DNA from: Actinomycetota bacterium
GTDB taxonomy: Bacteria > Actinomycetota > Actinomycetes > Streptosporangiales > Streptosporangiaceae
Reading direction: 5' to 3'
Assembly (NCBI GenBank): GCA_027314515.1
Contig: DAHVAR010000073.1
Location: 62,001-126,000 of the forward strand
DNA length: 64,000 nt
Each line of letters starts with the position of its first letter. The first letter of the stretch is position 1. Made by a program: the position numbers and the translations under genes. Shown here in pieces: positions 45,580 to 55,770 of this stretch. Under the pieces are notes generated by a model. That model saw only the letters and a program-made list of their open reading frames with translations. It searched no databases and had not been told where the DNA came from.

Positions 45580-46680
45580 TCAGCATTCCGGATCCGCGGC
45601 CGGCTGGAAGCCGGTGAGGATATCGCCGCCCCGAGCCGGGCCCTCCGGACCCCGCCGATGGCGACCGCCTCCAGCGCGCTCACCATCGCCATGTGGGCCG
45701 AGGTCTTTGCCGCCGCATCCGCCGCCCGCATCGCCCGCATCACCCCGGCCGCGGTCATGCTGCTGGCCGGCATCGGCTGCGGATCGTCCGCGTGATTCGC
45801 CGCCCCGTCCGCCGCCGTCTCGATCGTGCACCGCCGCGTGGGCCAGCGCGGACTCCGCATCGCCGATGCCGTGCCGGACCCGGGCGTCATCGGGTTCGGC
45901 GGTCTTCTGGTCTGGCGCGCCGTCCGCCACCACTGACCAGGGTGTGCCCGGAGGCGACGCGACGCCGGTCGGCGATGTCCAGGTCGTCATCGGCCGATGG
46001 GCGGGGTTCTCCTGGACGGCGGCGATGCGGCCGTCGCGCATGACGCCGACCCGCTGCGCCCGCCGCGCCACGCTGCTGTCGTGCGTGACCAGGATCATGG
46101 TCAGCTCATTGGAGACCCACATCTCCTCCAGCAGGGTGACGATCTCGTCTCTGGTGTCCTCGTCGAGGTTGCCGGTGGGCTCGTCGGCGAGCAGCACGGC
46201 CGGCTGTTTTACCAGCGCGCGGGCGATGGCGACCCGCTGCTGCTGACCGCCCGACAGCTCCGACGGCAGGTGGGATGCCCGGTCCGCGAGGCCGACGCTG
46301 GCAAGTGCCAGGGCAGCCATCTCCGCACGCGCAGCGCTCGCGACGTGCTGCGGGACCAGTGCCGTCTCCACGTTCTCCTGCGCGCTGAGGGTGGGAATGA
46401 GGTTGAAGGTCTGGAAGACGAAGCCGATCGACTCCGCCCGGACCCTGGTGATGTCGCTGTCACGCATCCGGGCCAGGTCCTGTCCGTCGAGTTCGACCAG
46501 GCCGCTCGTCGGCCGGTCCAGGGCGCCGAGCATCTGCAGGAGCGTGGTCTTGCCGTGGCCTGTCGGCCCCTGGATGGCCAGCCACGCCCCGTCCTCGATG
46601 ATCAGGTCCACTCCGGCCAGGGCGGTCACCGGCTCGCGGCCGCCAGGATAGGTCTTGGTCACTCCGGTTAGCTTGTACAC
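45580..46680 (-). CDS. ABC exporter ATPase (MacB/LolD-like) with long tail
   Basis: About 366 residues. The ATPase part (about 1-230) has GPTGHGKTT, LSGGQQQRVAIARA, LLADEPTGNLD and LVTHD. Ser in the usual GxSGxGKS Walker A is replaced by Thr-Gly-His (GPTGHGKT). After about residue 235 there is a Gly/Arg/Asp-rich tail of about 130 residues unlike any domain, perhaps from a lost stop codon. GTG 46680 has GAGAGGAAG upstream. It works with the FtsX permease just upstream on the minus strand. Confidence 0.87.
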   Translation of the reverse strand: MYKLTGVTKTYPGGREPVTALAGVDLIIEDGAWLAIQGPTGHGKTTLLQMLGALDRPTSGLVELDGQDLARMRDSDITRVRAESIGFVFQTFNLIPTLSAQENVETALVPQHVASAARAEMAALALASVGLADRASHLPSELSGGQQQRVAIARALVKQPAVLLADEPTGNLDEDTRDEIVTLLEEMWVSNELTMILVTHDSSVARRAQRVGVMRDGRIAAVQENPAHRPMTTWTSPTGVASPPGTPWSVVADGAPDQKTAEPDDARVRHGIGDAESALAHAAVHDRDGGGRGGESRGRSAADAGQQHDRGRGDAGDAGGGCGGKDLGPHGDGERAGGGRHRRGPEGPARGGDILTGFQPAADPEC

Positions 46681-46720
46681 GGCTTCCTCTCCGAACGGAC
46701 GGGACGGGACGGACTGCCCG

Positions 46721-48187
46721 TCATGCGACCCTGGACAGCGCATCGGCGGGGCGCAGCCTGCTGGCCCGCCAGCCACCGAGCGAGCCGGCGACCAGGCCGC
46801 CCAGGATCGCCAGGCCCACCGCGAGCGCCACGGCGGTCAGCGTCACTGGCGCGCTCAGGTGCACGGTCACGGTGTGGCCGGCCGCCGCCAGGGCCCGGAA
46901 CCCGCCGCCTCCGCGGCCGGCGTGCGGCCGGCCGCCGGCGAACGCGCGCGCGCCTCCCGGCGTCGCGGAGCCGGTGACCAGGCCAACCGAGGCGGACAGC
47001 GGCGGGGCGAGCGAGCCGACCAGAGCCGCTCCGGCCAGGCCGAGCCCGATTCCCGCCGCGCCGCCGATGGCCCCGACGGCCAGGGCTTCGCCGATGACCT
47101 GGCCGACGATGCGCCTGCTCCGCCAGCCAAGCGCTTTGAGCGTGCCGAACTCCCTGACCCGCCGCGAGACCGCGGACATAGTCAGCAGGCTTGCCAGGAG
47201 GAAGGCCGCCGCGAGTACCGCGATCGCCAGCCAGCGGCCCAGGCTGCCCGCCAGGCTGGCGGCGCTCGCAAGCGACCCGGTTACCTCGCCGGCTAGGTTG
47301 CCGGAATTGGTGACAGCGGCACCCGGCAGCAGGCGGGATATCTGCGCCGAGACCGGGCCGATCCCCGAAGCGCTGTCCGCCGCGACGAAGATCGTGTTGA
47401 CCTTGCCAGACAGCCCGGGACTGGCCAGCGCCTGGGCACGGGCCAGCGGAATGTAGACGTCCGACGGGTTGTCCCCCTGCGGCTCGGCCACAATCCCGAT
47501 GACCTTGAACCCCGTCCCGCCGACGGTGACAGCGGAGCCGACGCCGAGATTCTGCGCCGCCGCGAAGTTCGAGTCGATCACGGCGACATCGGAGTTCGAA
47601 TCCGCGGCCGTGAAGGTGCGGCCGGCGACCAGCTTCCCGGAGCTGAGCGGCCCGAGCTCACCCTGACCGATCTCGACTCCCTCGACACCGAACGCCGCCG
47701 GGGTGAGATAGGCGCGCAGGCCGTGATGCCGCCCCGTCGCGCCGCCGCCCGATGCCGCGGAGACGCTCGGGATCGTGCCGCTCAGCGTCATGTCAGTGAG
47801 CGTCAGCCCGCCGGCGGCCGCGGTCACGCCTGGCAGCCGGGATACGGCGGCCACCGAGGACGACTCCAGGGTTCCCAGTCCGCGGCTGCGCAGCACGCTG
47901 ACATCGATCCTGGTCCCCGCTGCGGGCCTGGTCCCGCCGAGTGCCTGGCGCAGCCCGAAGCCGAAGCCCTGGGCCGCACCGGAGCCGGGCACGGGGGGTT
48001 GGGTAACGGTGATGTCGGTGCCCACCCCGTACAGCGAGTGCAGTACCGTGCCCTGCGCGGCGGCGACCCCCGCCGACGCCGCAGTCACCGTGATGACCAG
48101 GCCGATTCCCAGAGCCAGGCCAAGCGAGATCAGGATGCTCTGCCGCATCCGCCGCCGCAGCTCACGGCGGAGGTAAATGAAGAACAC
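46721..48187 (-). CDS. FtsX-type ABC permease
   Basis: About 488 residues. An N-terminal helix (RQSILISLGLALGIGLVITVTA) is followed by a large extracytoplasmic domain (about 45-310) and C-terminal helices with the FtsX core (FLLASLLTMSAVSRRVREFGTLKALGWRSRRI). The extracytoplasmic part has the MacB periplasmic-core pattern (ADSNSDVAVIDSNFAAAQNLGVG). GTG 48187 has GGAGAGGAT upstream. The second FMN riboswitch lies 347 bp upstream on the same strand. The cargo is unknown; control by FMN would point to a flavin-related compound (inference). Confidence 0.9.
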   Translation of the reverse strand: MFFIYLRRELRRRMRQSILISLGLALGIGLVITVTAASAGVAAAQGTVLHSLYGVGTDITVTQPPVPGSGAAQGFGFGLRQALGGTRPAAGTRIDVSVLRSRGLGTLESSSVAAVSRLPGVTAAAGGLTLTDMTLSGTIPSVSAASGGGATGRHHGLRAYLTPAAFGVEGVEIGQGELGPLSSGKLVAGRTFTAADSNSDVAVIDSNFAAAQNLGVGSAVTVGGTGFKVIGIVAEPQGDNPSDVYIPLARAQALASPGLSGKVNTIFVAADSASGIGPVSAQISRLLPGAAVTNSGNLAGEVTGSLASAASLAGSLGRWLAIAVLAAAFLLASLLTMSAVSRRVREFGTLKALGWRSRRIVGQVIGEALAVGAIGGAAGIGLGLAGAALVGSLAPPLSASVGLVTGSATPGGARAFAGGRPHAGRGGGGFRALAAAGHTVTVHLSAPVTLTAVALAVGLAILGGLVAGSLGGWRASRLRPADALSRVA

Positions 48188-48456
48188 GCGGATCCTCTCC
48201 GGACATCGGCGACTGTGCCGCAGCGGTGTACTTGGCAGCGCGAGCCGGCTCGGCGCTGGATCCCGATAATGCCGCCTCATCTTGTGCGAACCCTGGGACG
48301 GTCGTGAGAGAAGATGAAGGTCCCCTGCGAGAACCCTGCGCACGCAGGATCCGACGCAAGAAGGCGGCGCCAGGCTGGTCTGCCGCGCCACCACTCCCTA
48401 GCCCGGCCGCATCCGCGTGCCGCGTCCGCTCACTCGGTGGTCGGCATGGTCGGAGT
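48188..48456 (-). other. Leader/intergenic region before the FtsX permease
   Basis: About 270 bp between the duplicated leader and the permease start. It holds no recognisable gene. It could be a long leader continuing from the riboswitch or contain a separate promoter. I see no strong -10/-35 pair. Confidence 0.45.
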
Positions 48457-48676
48457 CGGGGGAATATGCGCTAGCAGCGCAACCGCGGCGTCGCCGCCGA
48501 CCCGGACCACCGGGCCGGCGCGCTGCCGCGCACGTGCTGCCTCCCATCCGGACTTTTACCGTCGGTCCCGGTACCGTCGGTCCCGGAATTTCACCGGGTC
48601 AGCCAGCCGGTGGTTTCGGCCGGGTCACGGACTATCACCGCCGGTTCGGAGTTTCACCGACCCCGGAGCACGTACG
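48457..48676 (-). repeat. Duplicated ribE leader, copy 2 (includes FMN riboswitch)
   Basis: The second copy of the segment at 45256-45466. It differs by a few substitutions and small indels, and by a 15-bp tandem duplication in the riboswitch. The TGCGCT/AGCGCA hairpin is kept (48466-48480). Confidence 0.9.
48534..48671 (-). promoter_or_regulatory. Second FMN riboswitch, upstream of the ABC exporter
   Basis: All landmarks of copy 1 are present in order, including the closing stem, CGGCGGTGATAGTCCG, GGTGAAATTCCGGG and AAAAGTCCGGATGGGAG. A 15-bp unit (TACCGTCGGTCCCGG on the plus strand) is repeated at 48557-48571 and 48572-48586, just before the conserved 3' segment. The first gene downstream is the FtsX permease. 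The extra 15 nt may weaken FMN binding or may be looped out. Confidence 0.88.
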
Positions 48677-48694
48677 TCCGTGGACGAGTCAGCT

Positions 48695-50032
48695 TTACCT
48701 GGCAGTGCTGCCCCGGCGCGCCAGCGCGTCCAGGGCGACCGCTGCCAGCAGCACCAGGGCCGTCCAGATGTACTGGCCGGCCGCACCGAGGCCGAGCAGG
48801 TCGACGCCGTTGTAGATGACCGCGACGACGAACCCGCCGAGCACCGCGCCCAGCATCCGGCCCCGGCCGCCGAACAGGCTGACCCCGCCGATGACGCCGC
48901 CCGCGACCGAGTACAGCACGTACTGGCCGCCAGGGAAGTTCTCCGACATCGAGCCAAGGTAGGACGAGTACAGGATGCCGGTGATGCCGGCGAACAGGCC
49001 GGCCAGCGTGAACGCCAGCACCCTGATCCGGTTCAGGTTGATTCCGGCCCGCCTGGCCGCTTCGGCGTTCCCGCCGACCGCGTACATGTACCGGCCAAAC
49101 TTCGTCCGCATCAGCAGCACAGTCGTCGCAAGCAGCAGCGCGAGCACGACCACGACGACCCACGGAACGCCTTCCAGCGTGCCGAGGGCGGCCCGGTTGA
49201 GGTTGAGCACGAAGACCAGCGCCGCGCCGATCACCGCCATCACGCCGAGCTTGAGCACGGTGACGCCCGCCGGCGGCGCGGCGAGGCCGTTGCGCACCCG
49301 GCGCCGGTCTCGCGTGATCATGAAAATGCCACCCAGCAGCACGGATGCGATCAGGACGATCCAGCCGGCGCTGGCGCTGAGGTTGCCGTTCACGATGTCG
49401 TTGATGAAGTTGTTGTGGTTGGCGATCGTGCCGCCGATGCTGACCGCGTGGGAGACGTCGAACAGCCAGATCAGCACGCCGTTCAGGCCGAGCAGGCCGG
49501 CCAGCGTCACCACGAACGACGGGATCTTCAGCCAGACGATGATCAGGCCCTCGATAGCGGCAATGGCCCCGCAGACGACCAGGCCCGCAAGGATGGCGAT
49601 CGCCGTCGGCCACGGATGATTTATCGACACCAGCCACATGGTGATGGTGCCGCCGATGGCCGCGTTGAACCCGACCGACAGGTCGATCTCGCCGAGCAGC
49701 AAGATGAATGCCTGTGCCATGGCGATCGTGATGATCCAGCCGGCCTGGCCCATCAGGTTGGCGATATTGCTCGCCGACAGGAAAGTGCTCTGCGAGACCT
49801 GGAAGTAGATCACCAGCGCTATCAAGCCGATGATCACGGGCAGCGCGCCGCTCTCGCCGCTGCGCACGCGGCGCAGCCAGAGCCTGGCGTACTCGCCCAG
49901 CGAGTTGACCATCAGGTCCGGCGTGATCGCCGGGCCCGTGCCGACGGCCGCGATCTGCTCATCTGCTGCGCCGGCTACCGCCACCGGCCCCGCCGCCTGC
50001 GTGGCCGGTCCCTCGTGTCCTGTAGATGTCAT
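48695..50032 (-). CDS. Xylose/ribose-type ABC sugar importer permease
   Basis: 445 residues with about ten membrane helices. LGEIDLSVGFNAAIGGTITMWLV, TRFGRYMYAVGGN-type KFGRYMYAVGGNAEAARRAGI and GGVIGGVSLFGGRGRMLGAVLGG are signatures of RbsC/XylH permeases. It forms the channel with the ATPase and binding protein encoded just upstream. The ATG start overlaps the ATPase stop in ATGA. The second riboswitch starts 24 bp after its stop. Confidence 0.94.
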   Translation of the reverse strand: MTSTGHEGPATQAAGPVAVAGAADEQIAAVGTGPAITPDLMVNSLGEYARLWLRRVRSGESGALPVIIGLIALVIYFQVSQSTFLSASNIANLMGQAGWIITIAMAQAFILLLGEIDLSVGFNAAIGGTITMWLVSINHPWPTAIAILAGLVVCGAIAAIEGLIIVWLKIPSFVVTLAGLLGLNGVLIWLFDVSHAVSIGGTIANHNNFINDIVNGNLSASAGWIVLIASVLLGGIFMITRDRRRVRNGLAAPPAGVTVLKLGVMAVIGAALVFVLNLNRAALGTLEGVPWVVVVVLALLLATTVLLMRTKFGRYMYAVGGNAEAARRAGINLNRIRVLAFTLAGLFAGITGILYSSYLGSMSENFPGGQYVLYSVAGGVIGGVSLFGGRGRMLGAVLGGFVVAVIYNGVDLLGLGAAGQYIWTALVLLAAVALDALARRGSTAR

Positions 50033-50919
50033 GTCTGTCGGCCCTCCGAACCACTGCTGGCGCCAGTCGAGGCGGCTGACGCGGTGCCGCTTCCGTTGCC
50101 AAAGCGGCCAGCCGACCCGGTGGTCATGTACTCGACGACCGACTGCGAGTCGAATCCGGACGCCGGACCGACCGCGGCTAGCCTGCCGAGGTACAGGACC
50201 GCGATCCGGTCGGCGATCCGGAAGACGTCCGTCAGGTTGTGCGAGACGACGAGCACGGCGTGCCCTCGGCTAGCCAGCGTGGTGATCAGGTCCAGCACCA
50301 GTTCGGTCTGGGTGACGCCCAGCGCGGCGGTCGGCTCGTCCATGATCACGAGCCTGGCCTCCTGCATGACGGCCTTGGCCACGGCGACCGCCTGCCGCTG
50401 CCCGCCGGACAGCGAGCCGACCGGCTGCCTGATCGACCTGACGGTCGTCACCGAGAGATCCCTCAGCGTCTGCTTGGCGGTCAGCTCCATGGAGATCTCG
50501 TCAAGCAGGCCGAAGTGCGTCTTCTCGTGGCCGAGCAGCATGTTCTGCACGATGTCCAGGTTGTCGGCGAGCGCCAGGTCCTGGTAGACGGCGGCGATGC
50601 CGAGATTGGAAGCGTCCTTGGGCGAGTGCAGGTGCACCGGCCGGCCGTTCCAGATCAGCTGACCGCTGCTGGGCTCGTAGATGCCCGTGATGCACTTGAT
50701 CAGCGTTGTCTTGCCGGCCCCGTTGTCGCCCACCAGTGCGGTAACCTGCCCGGCTGGTATGTCGAGCTCGATCCCGGCGAGTGCCTGCACCGGGCCGAAT
50801 GCCTTGCCGACGCCTCGCAGTTGAAGCAGTGGGATGCCGGTCACTGCCGTGCCGGGCACGGACGGTGCCGCGCCCGCTGCTGCGGGCGTGGCACCGTCCC
50901 CGGCGCTGCTGGCTACCAC
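50029..50919 (-). CDS. Sugar ABC importer ATPase, single nucleotide-binding domain
   Basis: 296 residues. Walker A is GDNGAGKTT (about 64-72), the Q-loop region is VYQDLALADNLD, the signature is LSGGQRQAVAVAKA, Walker B is LVIMDEPTAALG and the H-loop is VVSHN. RbsA/XylG usually carry two such domains (about 500 residues). This one has only one, so the transporter needs a homodimer or a second ATPase. The fused ATPase at 53095-55770 is closely similar and could be that partner (inference). Confidence 0.93.
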   Translation of the reverse strand: MVASSAGDGATPAAAGAAPSVPGTAVTGIPLLQLRGVGKAFGPVQALAGIELDIPAGQVTALVGDNGAGKTTLIKCITGIYEPSSGQLIWNGRPVHLHSPKDASNLGIAAVYQDLALADNLDIVQNMLLGHEKTHFGLLDEISMELTAKQTLRDLSVTTVRSIRQPVGSLSGGQRQAVAVAKAVMQEARLVIMDEPTAALGVTQTELVLDLITTLASRGHAVLVVSHNLTDVFRIADRIAVLYLGRLAAVGPASGFDSQSVVEYMTTGSAGRFGNGSGTASAASTGASSGSEGRQT

Positions 50920-50956: not shown

Positions 50957-52183
50957 TTACGAGATCCCGTACTTCGTGCAGTCGGCCGCGTACGTTGGCT
51001 GCCCTGAGGCGGGCGACGCGCTCGTGCAGATCTGCGAGGCAGGCACGAAGTTGTCCTTCACCACCGTCGACTCCACGGTCTGCGGGGTGACCCATTCGGG
51101 GGTCAGCAGGATGGAAGGCACCGGGATGTTCTCCTGAATGTCCTTCACCGTTCCGTTGACCAGCGACGACGGCGGTGTGAGACCGGCCCGCAGGTACATG
51201 GCCAGCGCGACTGCCGCCTGTGCCTCCAGGTAGATCGGCTTGTACACGGTGCCGCACTGGTAACCGGAGATGATGTTCTGGATGCCGGTGAGGGTGGCGT
51301 CCTGGCCGGTGACCGGGAAGGTGTCCGGCTTGACGCCCTTGGTCTGCAGGTAGTGGATGATCGGCGCACCGTTCTCGTCGTTCGGGCTGAGCAGCGCGTT
51401 GGCATTCGGGTGCGTCGTGTAGGCGGCCTGGAACTCGGTCAGCGCGACGGTCGGTGTCCAGGTGCCGGCCGGGTTGGCCACGTCGGTGTAGGCCTTGCTG
51501 GCGAACTTCGGCGCCAGCACCGCATCGTAGCCGTCGGCGAACAGCGTCGCATTGTTGTCCGTCGGGTCGCCGCGCATCACGATGACCTTCGGGTTCTTGA
51601 CGCCCCACGAGGTGATGCAGCTCTCCAGGCCCTGGCCGAGCAGCGTGCCAACGCGCACGTTGTTGAAGCTGACGTAGTACTTGCGGCTGCCGCCGAGGGT
51701 GATCCGGTCGTAGTCGATCACCGGAACGCCGTGCGACTTGGCGTAGGACTCGATCTTGGCACCGGTGGCCGGGTCGAGCGGGTCCATGATCAGGACCTTC
51801 GCGCCCTTGGTGATGTCAGCCTGCGCGTCTGCGTACTCGGTCGCGTCGCTGCCCTGCGCGTTCTGGATGATCTGGTCTGACTTCGGCAGGCCGGCGGCCG
51901 TCATCGCCTTGGCCAGGTACGGCGCGTCGAACTCGACGTACCGGGTCGATGACACGGTGTCGGGCAGGATGGCGGCGATCTTGCCCGAACCGTGCGAGGC
52001 GAGGATCTTGATCGCGGACATGGCCGAGAAGCTCAGGTTGAAGTCGCTGTAGCTGAGCTTCGGCACCTGCGATGCACTGAGCTTGCTCGTGGAGCCCGGT
52101 GAACTGCTGCCGCAGGCGGCGACGAGCAGCGCCGCGCTGCTGGCAATGGCCACAGTGGCCACGGCCTTGGAGACTGAGCGCAA
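50957..52183 (-). CDS. Xylose/ribose-type substrate-binding lipoprotein
   Basis: About 408 residues. A signal peptide ends in a lipobox LLVAAC with the acylated Cys at about residue 24. The mature protein is a Peripla_BP_4-type sugar-binding protein: VLIMDPLDPATGAKIESYAKSHGVPVIDYDR and YYVSFNNVRVGTLLGQGL. The nearest named group I can suggest is XylF-like. TTG 52183 has GAGGTGG at the right spacing and is preferred; GTG 52192 also fits. It is the first gene of the importer unit. Confidence 0.92.
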   Translation of the reverse strand: MRSVSKAVATVAIASSAALLVAACGSSSPGSTSKLSASQVPKLSYSDFNLSFSAMSAIKILASHGSGKIAAILPDTVSSTRYVEFDAPYLAKAMTAAGLPKSDQIIQNAQGSDATEYADAQADITKGAKVLIMDPLDPATGAKIESYAKSHGVPVIDYDRITLGGSRKYYVSFNNVRVGTLLGQGLESCITSWGVKNPKVIVMRGDPTDNNATLFADGYDAVLAPKFASKAYTDVANPAGTWTPTVALTEFQAAYTTHPNANALLSPNDENGAPIIHYLQTKGVKPDTFPVTGQDATLTGIQNIISGYQCGTVYKPIYLEAQAAVALAMYLRAGLTPPSSLVNGTVKDIQENIPVPSILLTPEWVTPQTVESTVVKDNFVPASQICTSASPASGQPTYAADCTKYGIS

Positions 52184-52365
52184 GAAAACCACCTCGTCTG
52201 TTAGCGGGACGCCCGGAAAAGACGGGCTTTTCACAGCCCTGCGAGCACTCCCGCGTGGGGGTCAATTCGTCTTCCGCGGCAAACACTAGGCCGCGATCGA
52301 TGAACGGCTCCGTTAACATCCGGGTAACCTCGTGAAAATACCGTAAACGAAAACCTGCAGGTCAG

Positions 52366-52403: not shown

Positions 52404-53102
52404 TCAGTCCGCGAGGATCCGGTAGCCGGCCCGCGGCTGGGTGACGATCAGCGGCGTGCTGCCGGATTCCAGCTTGGCCCGCAGCCGCCGGATGTAGACC
52501 CGGACGTACTCGGTCTCGGTCTCGTAGCCGTGGCCCCAGACTCGCCGCAGCAGGTGCGCGTGGCTCAGCAGCTTGCCCCGGTTGGTCGCGAGCTCGCGCA
52601 GCAAGGCGAACTCCGTCGGGGTCAGGTGTACCGGGACGCCCGCTCGGGTGACTAGCTGCCTGGCCAGGTCGATCTCCAGGTCGGCGACGTTAATGACAGC
52701 TGGCGCCGACTCCGCCGGCAGCCCGGCGGGCCGGGTCCGGCGGAGCGTGGCGTTGATCCGCGCGAGCAGTTCCTCGATGCTGAACGGCTTGGTCATGTAA
52801 TCGTCGGCGCCGACATTCAGCGCGCTCACCTTGTCCCGTTCCCCGCCCCTGGCCGAGACGACGATGATCGCCACAGACGACCGCTCCCGGATCTGCCGGC
52901 ACAGCTCGAAACCATCGATCTCGGGCAGCATCAGGTCCAGCAGCACGATGTCCGGGGACTCGGTCTCCAGCAGCCGCAGCGCGCGCAGGCCATCTGCGGA
53001 CACCACCGTGTCGAAGCCGCGGACAGCGAGGTTCGACCTGATCAGATCGACGATGTTCGGGTCATCCTCGACCACGAGCGCACGCGTAGCCGCCTCAGTC
53101 AT
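52404..53102 (-). CDS. OmpR/KdpE-type response regulator
   Basis: 232 residues. The receiver domain (about 1-118) has VVEDD, the phospho-acceptor Asp in IVLLDLMLPEIDG, Thr/Ser in VVSARGG and Lys in MTKPFS. The C-terminal winged helix (about 130-230) reads LTPTEFALLRELATNRGKLLSH and YVRVYIRRLRAKLE. It is the output partner of the fused kinase: its ATG overlaps the kinase stop by 8 bp (ATGACTGA). The importer genes follow directly, so they are its likely target. Confidence 0.95.
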   Translation of the reverse strand: MTEAATRALVVEDDPNIVDLIRSNLAVRGFDTVVSADGLRALRLLETESPDIVLLDLMLPEIDGFELCRQIRERSSVAIIVVSARGGERDKVSALNVGADDYMTKPFSIEELLARINATLRRTRPAGLPAESAPAVINVADLEIDLARQLVTRAGVPVHLTPTEFALLRELATNRGKLLSHAHLLRRVWGHGYETETEYVRVYIRRLRAKLESGSTPLIVTQPRAGYRILAD

Positions 53103-55770
53103 CGCCCTCGCCCACCGTCAGCTGAGCCTGCCTGGCCGCGGTCGCGGCCACGGTTCCGACGGCCGGCCCGGTTCCGACGGCCGGCCCGGGGCTGGCCGTA
53201 GCGAGGAGTGCCTGGCCATCCGGGTCGGGCTGGGCCGCCAGGCCGGCCTCCGCCTCGATCGGCAGGCAGATGCGGAAGCAGGTCCCGCGCGGCTGGGCAA
53301 CTAGCTCAATCCGGCCACCGTGCGCGGTCACGATTCCCCTGGCGATGGACAGCCCCAGGCCCGCGCCGGCGGTCGGGCCACGCCACCGCCTTGCGGGCTC
53401 GAAGCGCGCCCTGGCCGTATCCGGGCCAAGGCCCCGTCCGTCGTCGGCCACCGTCACCTCCACGTACTCGGCCCTGGCGACAGCGCTGACCTGGACGTTC
53501 GTCCCGGCCGGATTATGGCCGACCGCGTTCGCCAGCAGGTTCACGAAGACTTGCTCCAGCCGGTCATGATCGGCCCAGATCACCGGCAGGTCCGGCGCGC
53601 AGGATACCTTCACCGGCGGTGAGACGTCCGGCGGCAGGCACGCGATCGCGGCTTCCAGCACGAGCGCCAGGTCGCACCAGTCACGTTGCAGCCGCAGGAT
53701 GCCTGACTCGATCGCGGAGAAGTCGAGCAGGTCGTCGACGAGCCGGCCGAGCCGGGCTGACTCGGCCGCGATCCGGCGCAGGAACCGGTGCTGGGACTCG
53801 TTATCCCAGGTCACGTCCGGCTGCAGCAAGCTAGAGGCGTAGCCGCGGATCGCCGTCAGCGGTGTGCGCAGCTCATGGCTCAGCCTGGACAGGAAGCCAC
53901 GCTGGAGTTCCTGCGACCTGCGCAGGGTAAGTGCCTCCTGATGGGCGACGGACGCCTCCTCGCGTTCCAGTGCCAGCTGCAGCGAGCGGGCGGCGTCTTC
54001 GGCCAGCGCCCCGGCGTCGGCCGGCTGCGCGGTAGTGCGCCAGCAGACCACCAGCGCTGCGCCGCCGCCAGGCGCCGCGAACGGCACCGTCACAATCCGG
54101 CCGCGGCTGCCGGGCGCGTGCACTGCGACGTCGTTCTTGCGCGCCCGGCTCAGCACCCCGGCCGCGGCTGCGACCAGGTCATCGTCGGCGCTAGCGGGCC
54201 GCAGGTCAGCCCGCCCGGCCGCGGCCCGCACCACCGGCTCCTGCCCGGCCCGGCGGACCACCAGTGCTGCCTGGTCAGCCTGCAAACCCCGGCACAGCGC
54301 CTGCAGCGCGACCCCGAGGCTCTGGCTCACCGGCAGCGGCCCGGCTAGCGTCTCCAGCATCTCCCTGATCGTCTCGAGCACCCGGTTCCTGGCGGTGACC
54401 TCGGCCAGCAGGCCATCCCGCTCGATCGCACTGGCCGCGTACCCGGCGTACAGCGTGACCAGGTCCAGGTCATCCCGCTTCGGCTTGCCGCGCATCGACC
54501 GGAACACCGTGATCACTCCGGCCAGCCCCTGCGGGCCGAGCACGGGCACCGACCACGAGCTGGCCACCCTGGCGGACCTGGCCAGGGTCGCGAACGGCGC
54601 CCAGCGGCCGTCGCTTCGCACGTCATCGGCGATGACCGGCTCGCCGGCCGCCGCCGCGATCCCGGCCGGCCCGCCAGCCGGGCCCTGCGGCAGCCGGGAC
54701 CAGGCTGACAGCAGCGGGTCAGCGAGGCCGAGCGAGGCGGCGCAGGCCAGCTCGCTACCGGAGACCAGGTGGATGCACAGCCGCTCGCTGCCGAGCGCCG
54801 CGCCGAGCGCGGACAGGATCAGCGACAGGCTGGACGAGGGATCCGCGCTGACGAGCCGGCCGGTAAGCCCGTGCAGCCTGGTGAGCTGGCTGCGCGCGGA
54901 GGAGTCCGCGTCCTGCCCGGACAGCAGGGCGATCACGTCATCGGGGTGCACCTCGGTCGGCCTGACCTCGGCCACTACCCGGCCGTGCCGGAGCACCACG
55001 ATCCGGTCAGCGAGCCGGAACATCATGTCGATGTCGTGGCAGGCGAGCAGGACCGAGGTGCCCTGCTGGCGCACACCGCTGATCAGGTCCTCGACCAGCT
55101 TCGACATGGTCACGCCGAGCGCCGTCGTTGGCTCGTCAAGCAGTAGCAGCCGGGGCCGGTGACTGATCGCCCGGCCAACGGCCACGAGCTGGCGCTGGCC
55201 GCCGGAGAGCGACCGGATGTCACGGGTGGTAGCAGGCAGGCTGATGCCCAGGTCCGCGAGCAGCCGTCTGGCCCCGGTGTGCAGCTTGACCTCGGACATC
55301 AGGTGCGTCCGCCGTTCCCGCCCCAGCATCAGGTTCGCTGCGATATCGAGGTTGTCGCACAGCGCCAGGTCCTGCCAGAGCACGCTGACGCCCTGGCGGG
55401 CCAGCGCGCCGGGGTCGGGCTGCAGCGGCATGCCGCCGAGCTTGATCTCACCCGCATGCGGAGCCATGTCGCCGCCGATGCAGCGCATCAGCGTGGTCTT
55501 CCCGGCCCCGTTCTCCCCGGCGAGGGCGACCACCTCGCCCTCCCGCACGGTCAGGCCCACGCCGAGGAGCGCCTGCACGGGACCGAAGTTGACCGCAAGA
55601 TCGCGGACCTCCAGCAGCGGGGACACGGCAGGCGGTTCCCGGCCGTCAGCGCTCCGGTCGCCCGGGCCGGGTTCGCCGCCCCGGCCATCCGCGCCGCCAT
55701 GCGCAGCGCGCCTGCCGGCACCGGGTCCTTTCGCCGCCGTCATGAGCACACTCTGAGCCCAGCGCGTCAT
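53095..55770 (-). CDS. Fusion protein: sugar-type ABC ATPase + GAF-like regions + histidine kinase
   Basis: 891 residues in one uninterrupted frame. ABC ATPase at about 52-285: Walker A GENGAGKT (85-92), Q-loop VLWQDLALCDNLD, signature LSGGQRQ (188-194), Walker B LLLLDEP (208-214), H-loop CHD (244-246). Two GAF-like regions follow at about 305-455 and 475-605. Then HisKA with LSHELRTPLTAIRGY (His at about 632) and HATPase with the N-box VFVNLLANAVGHNP, ADDGRGLG and GAGLGLSIA. No membrane segment or signal peptide is seen, so it is cytosolic. Its ATPase resembles the single-domain importer ATPase downstream. It is expected to phosphorylate the response regulator at 52404-53102. I know of no characterised protein with this architecture. 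ATG 55743 is an alternative start. Confidence 0.93.
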   Translation of the reverse strand: MTRWAQSVLMTAAKGPGAGRRAAHGGADGRGGEPGPGDRSADGREPPAVSPLLEVRDLAVNFGPVQALLGVGLTVREGEVVALAGENGAGKTTLMRCIGGDMAPHAGEIKLGGMPLQPDPGALARQGVSVLWQDLALCDNLDIAANLMLGRERRTHLMSEVKLHTGARRLLADLGISLPATTRDIRSLSGGQRQLVAVGRAISHRPRLLLLDEPTTALGVTMSKLVEDLISGVRQQGTSVLLACHDIDMMFRLADRIVVLRHGRVVAEVRPTEVHPDDVIALLSGQDADSSARSQLTRLHGLTGRLVSADPSSSLSLILSALGAALGSERLCIHLVSGSELACAASLGLADPLLSAWSRLPQGPAGGPAGIAAAAGEPVIADDVRSDGRWAPFATLARSARVASSWSVPVLGPQGLAGVITVFRSMRGKPKRDDLDLVTLYAGYAASAIERDGLLAEVTARNRVLETIREMLETLAGPLPVSQSLGVALQALCRGLQADQAALVVRRAGQEPVVRAAAGRADLRPASADDDLVAAAAGVLSRARKNDVAVHAPGSRGRIVTVPFAAPGGGAALVVCWRTTAQPADAGALAEDAARSLQLALEREEASVAHQEALTLRRSQELQRGFLSRLSHELRTPLTAIRGYASSLLQPDVTWDNESQHRFLRRIAAESARLGRLVDDLLDFSAIESGILRLQRDWCDLALVLEAAIACLPPDVSPPVKVSCAPDLPVIWADHDRLEQVFVNLLANAVGHNPAGTNVQVSAVARAEYVEVTVADDGRGLGPDTARARFEPARRWRGPTAGAGLGLSIARGIVTAHGGRIELVAQPRGTCFRICLPIEAEAGLAAQPDPDGQALLATASPGPAVGTGPAVGTVAATAARQAQLTVGEGDD

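Follow-up and report, generated by a model that had tools for sequence, protein, structure and literature searches.

The window, as we call the whole stretch of 64,000 nucleotides analysed here, contains on its minus strand one intact reading frame (53095–55770), which as called encodes 891 residues and joins an ABC NBD, two GAF modules, a HisKA domain and a HATPase_c domain. Pfam matched ABC_tran at residues 70–216 (99 bits), GAF_2 at residues 310–450 (44 bits), HisKA at residues 623–690 (70 bits) and HATPase_c at residues 734–839 (75 bits). The NBD (residues 50–288; 54907–55623, minus strand) is of the single-NBD CUT2 type, and every catalytic motif is present: Walker A (GENGAGKTT), Q-loop (WQD), signature (LSGGQRQ), Walker B (LLLLDEP) and H-loop (CHD). 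As the permease coupling helix of ABC importers is generally understood to adjoin the Q-loop, we take the segment that includes it, LWQDLALCDNLDIAANLMLGRE (residues 131–152; 55315–55380, minus strand), to be the permease-docking segment. A conserved linker (residues 284–313; 54832–54921, minus strand) leads into the first GAF domain (residues 310–455; 54406–54843, minus strand), which was found both by Pfam and in the AlphaFold model. The second module (residues ~481–600; 53971–54330, minus strand) had no Pfam match and was assigned from its predicted fold only, an alpha/beta module of the GAF type. The HisKA dimerisation/phosphoacceptor domain (DHp; 53701–53904, minus strand) carries H632 in SHELRTP, and this H-box and the N, G1 and G2 boxes of the kinase were all intact, with the HATPase_c catalytic domain lying at 53254–53571 (minus strand). 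The preliminary description had read the frame as ABC motifs, GAF-like regions and a complete kinase, and the profile matches, the motifs and, for the second GAF module, the predicted fold bear this reading out.

The AlphaFold model was built on a nine-row alignment and had a mean pLDDT of 65.7 and a pTM of 0.34, so that it was used for domain boundaries only. It placed the NBD at residues 53–283, a helix at 290–306, the first GAF domain from 314, a long helix at 432–476, the GAF-like module at 481–600 and a long helix at 586–648 that runs into the DHp domain, followed by the catalytic domain. No segment of the fusion protein was hydrophobic enough for a membrane helix, and the permease of the same operon has nine by the same measure; the kinase is thus predicted to be a soluble protein. 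Translation may start at M10 (~55743) instead of the called start. The pattern ANAATG-N6-ATG, conserved at this position in relatives, looks like a leaderless promoter. Foldseek returned no solved structure combining the ABC and kinase parts; its best matches covered each half separately, bacteriophytochromes on the kinase side and ABC ATPases on the other.

The fusion gene is followed on the same strand by genes for a regulator, a binding protein, a separate ATPase and a permease. The regulator (52404–53102) is of the OmpR/PhoB type with Response_reg and Trans_reg_C domains, and the first 8 bases of its gene are shared with the end of the fusion gene. The binding protein (50957–52234) is a sugar-binding lipoprotein of the Peripla_BP_4 family, XylF/ChvE-like, whose likely start is a TTG at ~52183 after GAGGTGG; XylF and ChvE were the best-matching models, with scores well below their cut-offs. 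The separate ATPase (50029–50919) is a standalone single-NBD CUT2 protein, and the permease (48695–50032) is a CUT2-type, GguB/XylH-like protein of the BPD_transp_2 family with the coupling-loop motif AVGGNAEAARRAGI near residue 317. By sequence, these three are ordinary members of a CUT2 importer. The likeness of the fused NBD to the separate ATPase, remarked on earlier, proved to be the closest in the genome (45% identity and E = 1e-53, with 1e-30 for the next-best ABC match). The preliminary description had listed the fusion and the standalone ATPase correctly and had missed the overlapping regulator, the binding protein, the permease and the repeats at 52300–52348.

These repeats lie in the gap between the regulator and binding-protein genes and constitute a putative operator for the response regulator, GTTTACGGTATTTTCACGAGGTTACCCGGATGTTAACGGAGCCGTTCAT (minus strand), with TTNAY half-sites 11 bp apart. 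A -10-like element, TAGTGT (52283–52288, minus strand), lies downstream of them, and family relatives have TANNNT at this place. A 46-base pattern taken from the array matched once at up to three mismatches in the whole 5.86 Mb genome, was not matched in 100 shuffles of the window, and recurred at the corresponding position in most family relatives and in the genome G253. Direct-repeat pairs of TTNAY with 11-bp spacing, 35 in all, were present in every one of the 23 regulator/binding-protein gaps; because the motif had initially been spotted by eye in part of this set, the family relatives are no independent test, and the eight gaps added later (L144–L150 and L152) are a largely independent one. 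Shuffled gaps contained a mean of 0.2 such pairs and at most one, and other spacings from 5 to 17 gave at most 9 pairs (at 12 bp). No such array was found upstream of the fusion gene itself. From the gene order and the repeats together, the kinase–regulator pair very probably controls the importer genes. Within about 200 bases of position 7954 of L071 (G146), upstream of the fusion gene of that genome, we also observed two CRISPR-like copies of GTCGTCCCCGCCCGCGCGGGGGTCATCC.

The fusion recurred in about 30 genomes from three actinobacterial groups, with 38–96% identity to the window protein by BLASTP. Conservation across species with an intact linker, which had been named in advance as support for a real protein, was what we found in these genomes; neither a stop nor a frameshift was seen between residues 285 and 620, and split copies occurred only at contig ends. 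A scan of the genome collection gave eight relatives of 59–96% identity, nearly full length and each in one open frame. The GAF region, used as a fusion-specific probe that would miss ABC–kinase fusions without these GAF modules, matched 16 of the 151 genomes of the window's own family, one of which (G035) was without an NBD; in the sampled order, matches were limited to that family. At the scale of the phylum, full fusions were found in G431, G335 and G253, the last a single contig of 2.16 Mb. The class of G431 had four full fusions among 66 genomes, including G579, whose second contig was identical over the 8 kb tested to the Euzebya pacifica DY32-46 plasmid NZ_CP031166.1, and that of G253 had fusions in 10 of 395 genomes from about eight families.

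Several other matches were set aside. A Rhizobium rhizoryzae plasmid that matched over both halves encodes a KdpD-like kinase, a regulator and a dual-NBD ATPase in separate genes, and the matches in Planctomycetota (L009) and Pseudomonas (L019) were ordinary CUT2 ATPases. Matches to the GAF or kinase part in G035, G351, G574, G590 and G224 showed no NBD. The copy in G066 (L078, 3423–5672) is probably decaying or misassembled: it lacks the first GAF domain, so that its NBD joins the helix before the second GAF module directly, both its Walker A (GEKGAGKTT) and its signature (LPGGQ) are altered, and only a regulator fragment lies downstream. Among plasmid records none covered 80% of the query, and no relative of the fusion was found in viral contigs. 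The open-access papers searched described no ABC-ATPase/histidine-kinase fusion.

The operon was conserved along with the fusion. When the split contigs of one genome were taken together, a regulator, a binding protein and a CUT2 permease followed the fusion gene in 27 of 27 operons with usable flanks, and a separate ATPase was present in 24, the usual order being FUS>RR>SBP>NBD>PERM. The remaining three, in G431, G576 and a second copy in G025, had the order FUS>RR>SBP>PERM, and the sequence examined contained no gene for a separate ATPase; the G025 copy is split across two contig ends (C600 and C612), and its continuity is inferred. The permeases of all three retain the coupling-loop motif, although the fused NBD is the sole ATPase left in these operons. 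Elsewhere, the G431 genome encodes a related importer with all of its components, and the ATPase of that importer could supply the function in trans. In these three loci the regulator and binding-protein genes abut or overlap, and no TTNAY pairs with 11-bp spacing were found.

Trees were built of the NBDs and of the permeases and binding proteins. In the NBD tree, the 21 fused domains formed one group (ultrafast bootstrap 96, SH-aLRT 88), which sat with the single-NBD CUT2 ATPases (92/86) and outside both halves of the dual-NBD proteins. The fused protein has a single NBD, and the dual-NBD equivalogs (RbsA/XylG/GguA) scored at most 158 bits against cut-offs of at least 586. The tree thus indicates that the fused NBD is derived from single-NBD CUT2 ATPases. 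The fused domains of the three operons without a separate ATPase formed one clade (86/87), whereas in the permease and binding-protein trees the G025 copy did not group with G431 and G576; the importer parts and the fusion have therefore not always been inherited together.

The catalytic residues of the fused NBD were almost invariant. The Walker A lysine and the Walker B DEP were kept in 31 of 31 NBD-bearing copies, and the Q-loop glutamine and H-loop histidine in 30 of 31, the exception being G576, which has lost both and retains the nucleotide-binding motifs. The domain also carries the CUT2-type docking segment YQDLALCDNLD..N..LG.E, and this Q-loop/docking segment was 66% identical between fused and separate NBDs, compared with 30% for the NBD outside the motifs. 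Across 28 full-length copies, the mean pairwise identity was 0.72 for the docking segment, 0.53 for the NBD, 0.59 for the linker, 0.46 for the first GAF domain, 0.67 for the helix 432–480, 0.32 for the second GAF module, 0.64 for the helix 586–622, 0.76 for the DHp domain and 0.52 for the catalytic domain. The path from the NBD to the DHp domain (0.59–0.76 for the linker and helices) is thus better conserved than the GAF modules along it.

Taken together, we propose that the protein would act as a soluble histidine kinase with an importer ATPase as its input domain. The kinase has no transmembrane segment, so that an outside signal requires a membrane partner. Like a normal importer ATPase, the fused NBD would dock from the cytoplasm on the CUT2-type permease of the operon. 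Sugar delivered by the binding protein, together with the cycle of NBD closure and opening driven by ATP, would be felt through the linker, the GAF modules and the connecting helices at the HisKA dimer and would change kinase activity there; the kinase would phosphorylate the overlapping OmpR-type regulator, which would bind the 11-bp-spaced repeats and turn on the binding protein, the separate ATPase and the permease. A feedback is plausible, in which separate ATPase, once newly synthesised, would take the place of the kinase on permeases. We consider it fairly probable that the permease is a docking site for the NBD and that NBD state is transmitted to the kinase, as is suggested by the permease pairing, the ancestry of the NBD, the conservation of the docking segment and linker, the coupling loops and the 11-bp repeats. 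The preliminary description had proposed that transport state or nucleotide binding could set kinase activity directly. The fusion is genuine and such control remains the best-supported reading, but the permease is probably not bypassed, and the NBD would serve as the kinase's plug. More tentatively, the kinase could itself be an importer subunit: two fused NBDs would close on the permease dimer while the kinase halves dimerise, each cycle would be read out as phosphorylation, and a swap with the separate ATPase would toggle the permease between sensing and pure transport. Some observations temper the docking view. The docking segment adjoins catalytic residues, and constraints of the ATPase fold could explain part of its conservation; in the 24 operons with a separate ATPase, transport need not be driven by the fused NBD; and both the Q-loop and H-loop losses in G576 and the possible trans-acting ATPase in G431 count against it.

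Other readings of the same data were weighed. The NBD might never touch the permease and might instead be a cytosolic ATP-binding or dimerisation module, through which the kinase would read cellular ATP/ADP along with a GAF ligand, the importer being no more than the regulated target. The invariant Walker A and B motifs, found while most operons have a separate ATPase as the usual motor, the retention of nucleotide binding in G576 without the Q-loop and H-loop residues, and the frequent sensing of intracellular signals by soluble GAF kinases all agree with such a role. However, it leaves unexplained the strict pairing with a permease and a binding protein, the conserved docking segment and the operons that have a permease but no other ATPase, and we consider it unlikely. 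Alternatively, the fused NBD could be a second transport ATPase that the kinase, sensing through its GAF modules, merely accompanies, with the two halves uncoupled. Its nearest relatives are real importer ATPases and 30 of the 31 copies have the full catalytic set, but a passive tether would not need to be among the better conserved parts, as the linker is, and G576 retains the fusion despite degenerate ATPase motifs; this reading is distinctly improbable. There is only a slim chance that the basic role is sensing, with the binding protein and permease acting as the receptor of the kinase and transport secondary or lost. The operons without a separate ATPase, which form one clade, lack the promoter repeats, have abutting or overlapping regulator and binding-protein genes and in one case have degenerate catalytic motifs, would fit it; against it, two of the three keep the Q-loop glutamine and H-loop histidine, and the tree, with three examples only, does not tell which layout is ancestral. 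An assembly or frame artefact, which the 280 contigs of the window genome might suggest, is refuted by the independent genomes with the same fusion, including the single-contig G253 and the cultured Euzebya pacifica, and is vanishingly improbable.

We compared the system with known transporters and kinases. The importer parts are similar by sequence to CUT2 importers of the XylFGH/RbsABC/GguAB-ChvE type (single-NBD branch), whereas the ordinary single-NBD CUT2 operons examined adjoin LacI- or AraC-type regulators and have no kinase-fused second NBD. In the clostridial XylFII-LytS/YesN system and its kin, a sugar importer is under two-component control with input from a XylF-like binding protein, and the binding protein is thought to contact the membrane kinase directly; the XylF-like binding protein and the two-component control are shared, but the fusion kinase has no membrane part. 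The kinase core is similar to that of KdpD (6lgq), and the NCBIfam KdpD model matched only the kinase part of the fusion (121.7 bits; cut-off 1123). The nucleotide-binding N-terminal region of full-length KdpD is not an ABC ATPase and the protein has transmembrane helices, whereas the fusion begins with an ABC ATPase and has none. In the antimicrobial-peptide module BceAB-BceRS of Bacillus subtilis, a histidine kinase is under the control of an ABC transporter, the genes of which are in turn induced by the kinase's regulator, and kinase and transporter form a complex in which the movements of ATPase and kinase appear coordinated (PMC10314905). The fusion circuit as proposed shares this logic of a transporter-controlled kinase that induces its transporter. 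In contrast, the Bce kinase sits in the membrane as a protein of its own beside the permease BceB, while the fusion kinase is predicted to be soluble, bears the ATPase itself and has GAF modules in place of a TM/HAMP input; its partner is a CUT2-type sugar importer with a binding protein, and the permease is of the BPD_transp_2 and not the FtsX/MacB type of BceB. The phosphate system PstSCAB-PhoU-PhoR also reports the state of an importer to a histidine kinase with an OmpR/PhoB-type regulator, but PstB and PhoR are separate and linked via PhoU (PMC6978683), and here ATPase and kinase are one chain. The components thus belong to known families, and no description of the covalent ABC-ATPase/kinase architecture was found in the open-access papers searched.

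Its recurrence across distant actinobacteria makes the fusion look like a real coupling of a transporter to a genetic switch. Reporting from transporter to kinase has been hard to study because it depends on contacts within the membrane, Bce modules being an example; with a covalent, soluble and conserved link, a single purified protein would suffice to measure how ATPase state affects the kinase. Natural variants of the circuit exist, since some operons have the separate ATPase and others do not, and a cultured strain with the fusion exists (Euzebya pacifica).

The surroundings of the operon showed further features. A ribulose-phosphate epimerase gene lies upstream of the fusion gene in the window and in several relatives, and this neighbourhood may be merely positional. 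The importer operon is directly followed by a separate ABC system, which consists of a MacB/FtsX-type permease and an ABC ATPase (45580–48394, minus strand). On the plus strand, a 757-codon open frame (48314–50587) antisense to the permease and ATPase genes is probably a by-product of high GC content and no gene. The G1009 operon has two binding-protein genes. In G1007 (L144, 8354–15302), the regulator and binding-protein genes are separated by additional genes of permease-like and divergent ATPase type, possibly from a merging of two importers. In G576 (L114, 11225–12980), a pair of BPD_transp_1 permease genes stops a short way upstream of the fusion operon, whose regulator might control this second importer.
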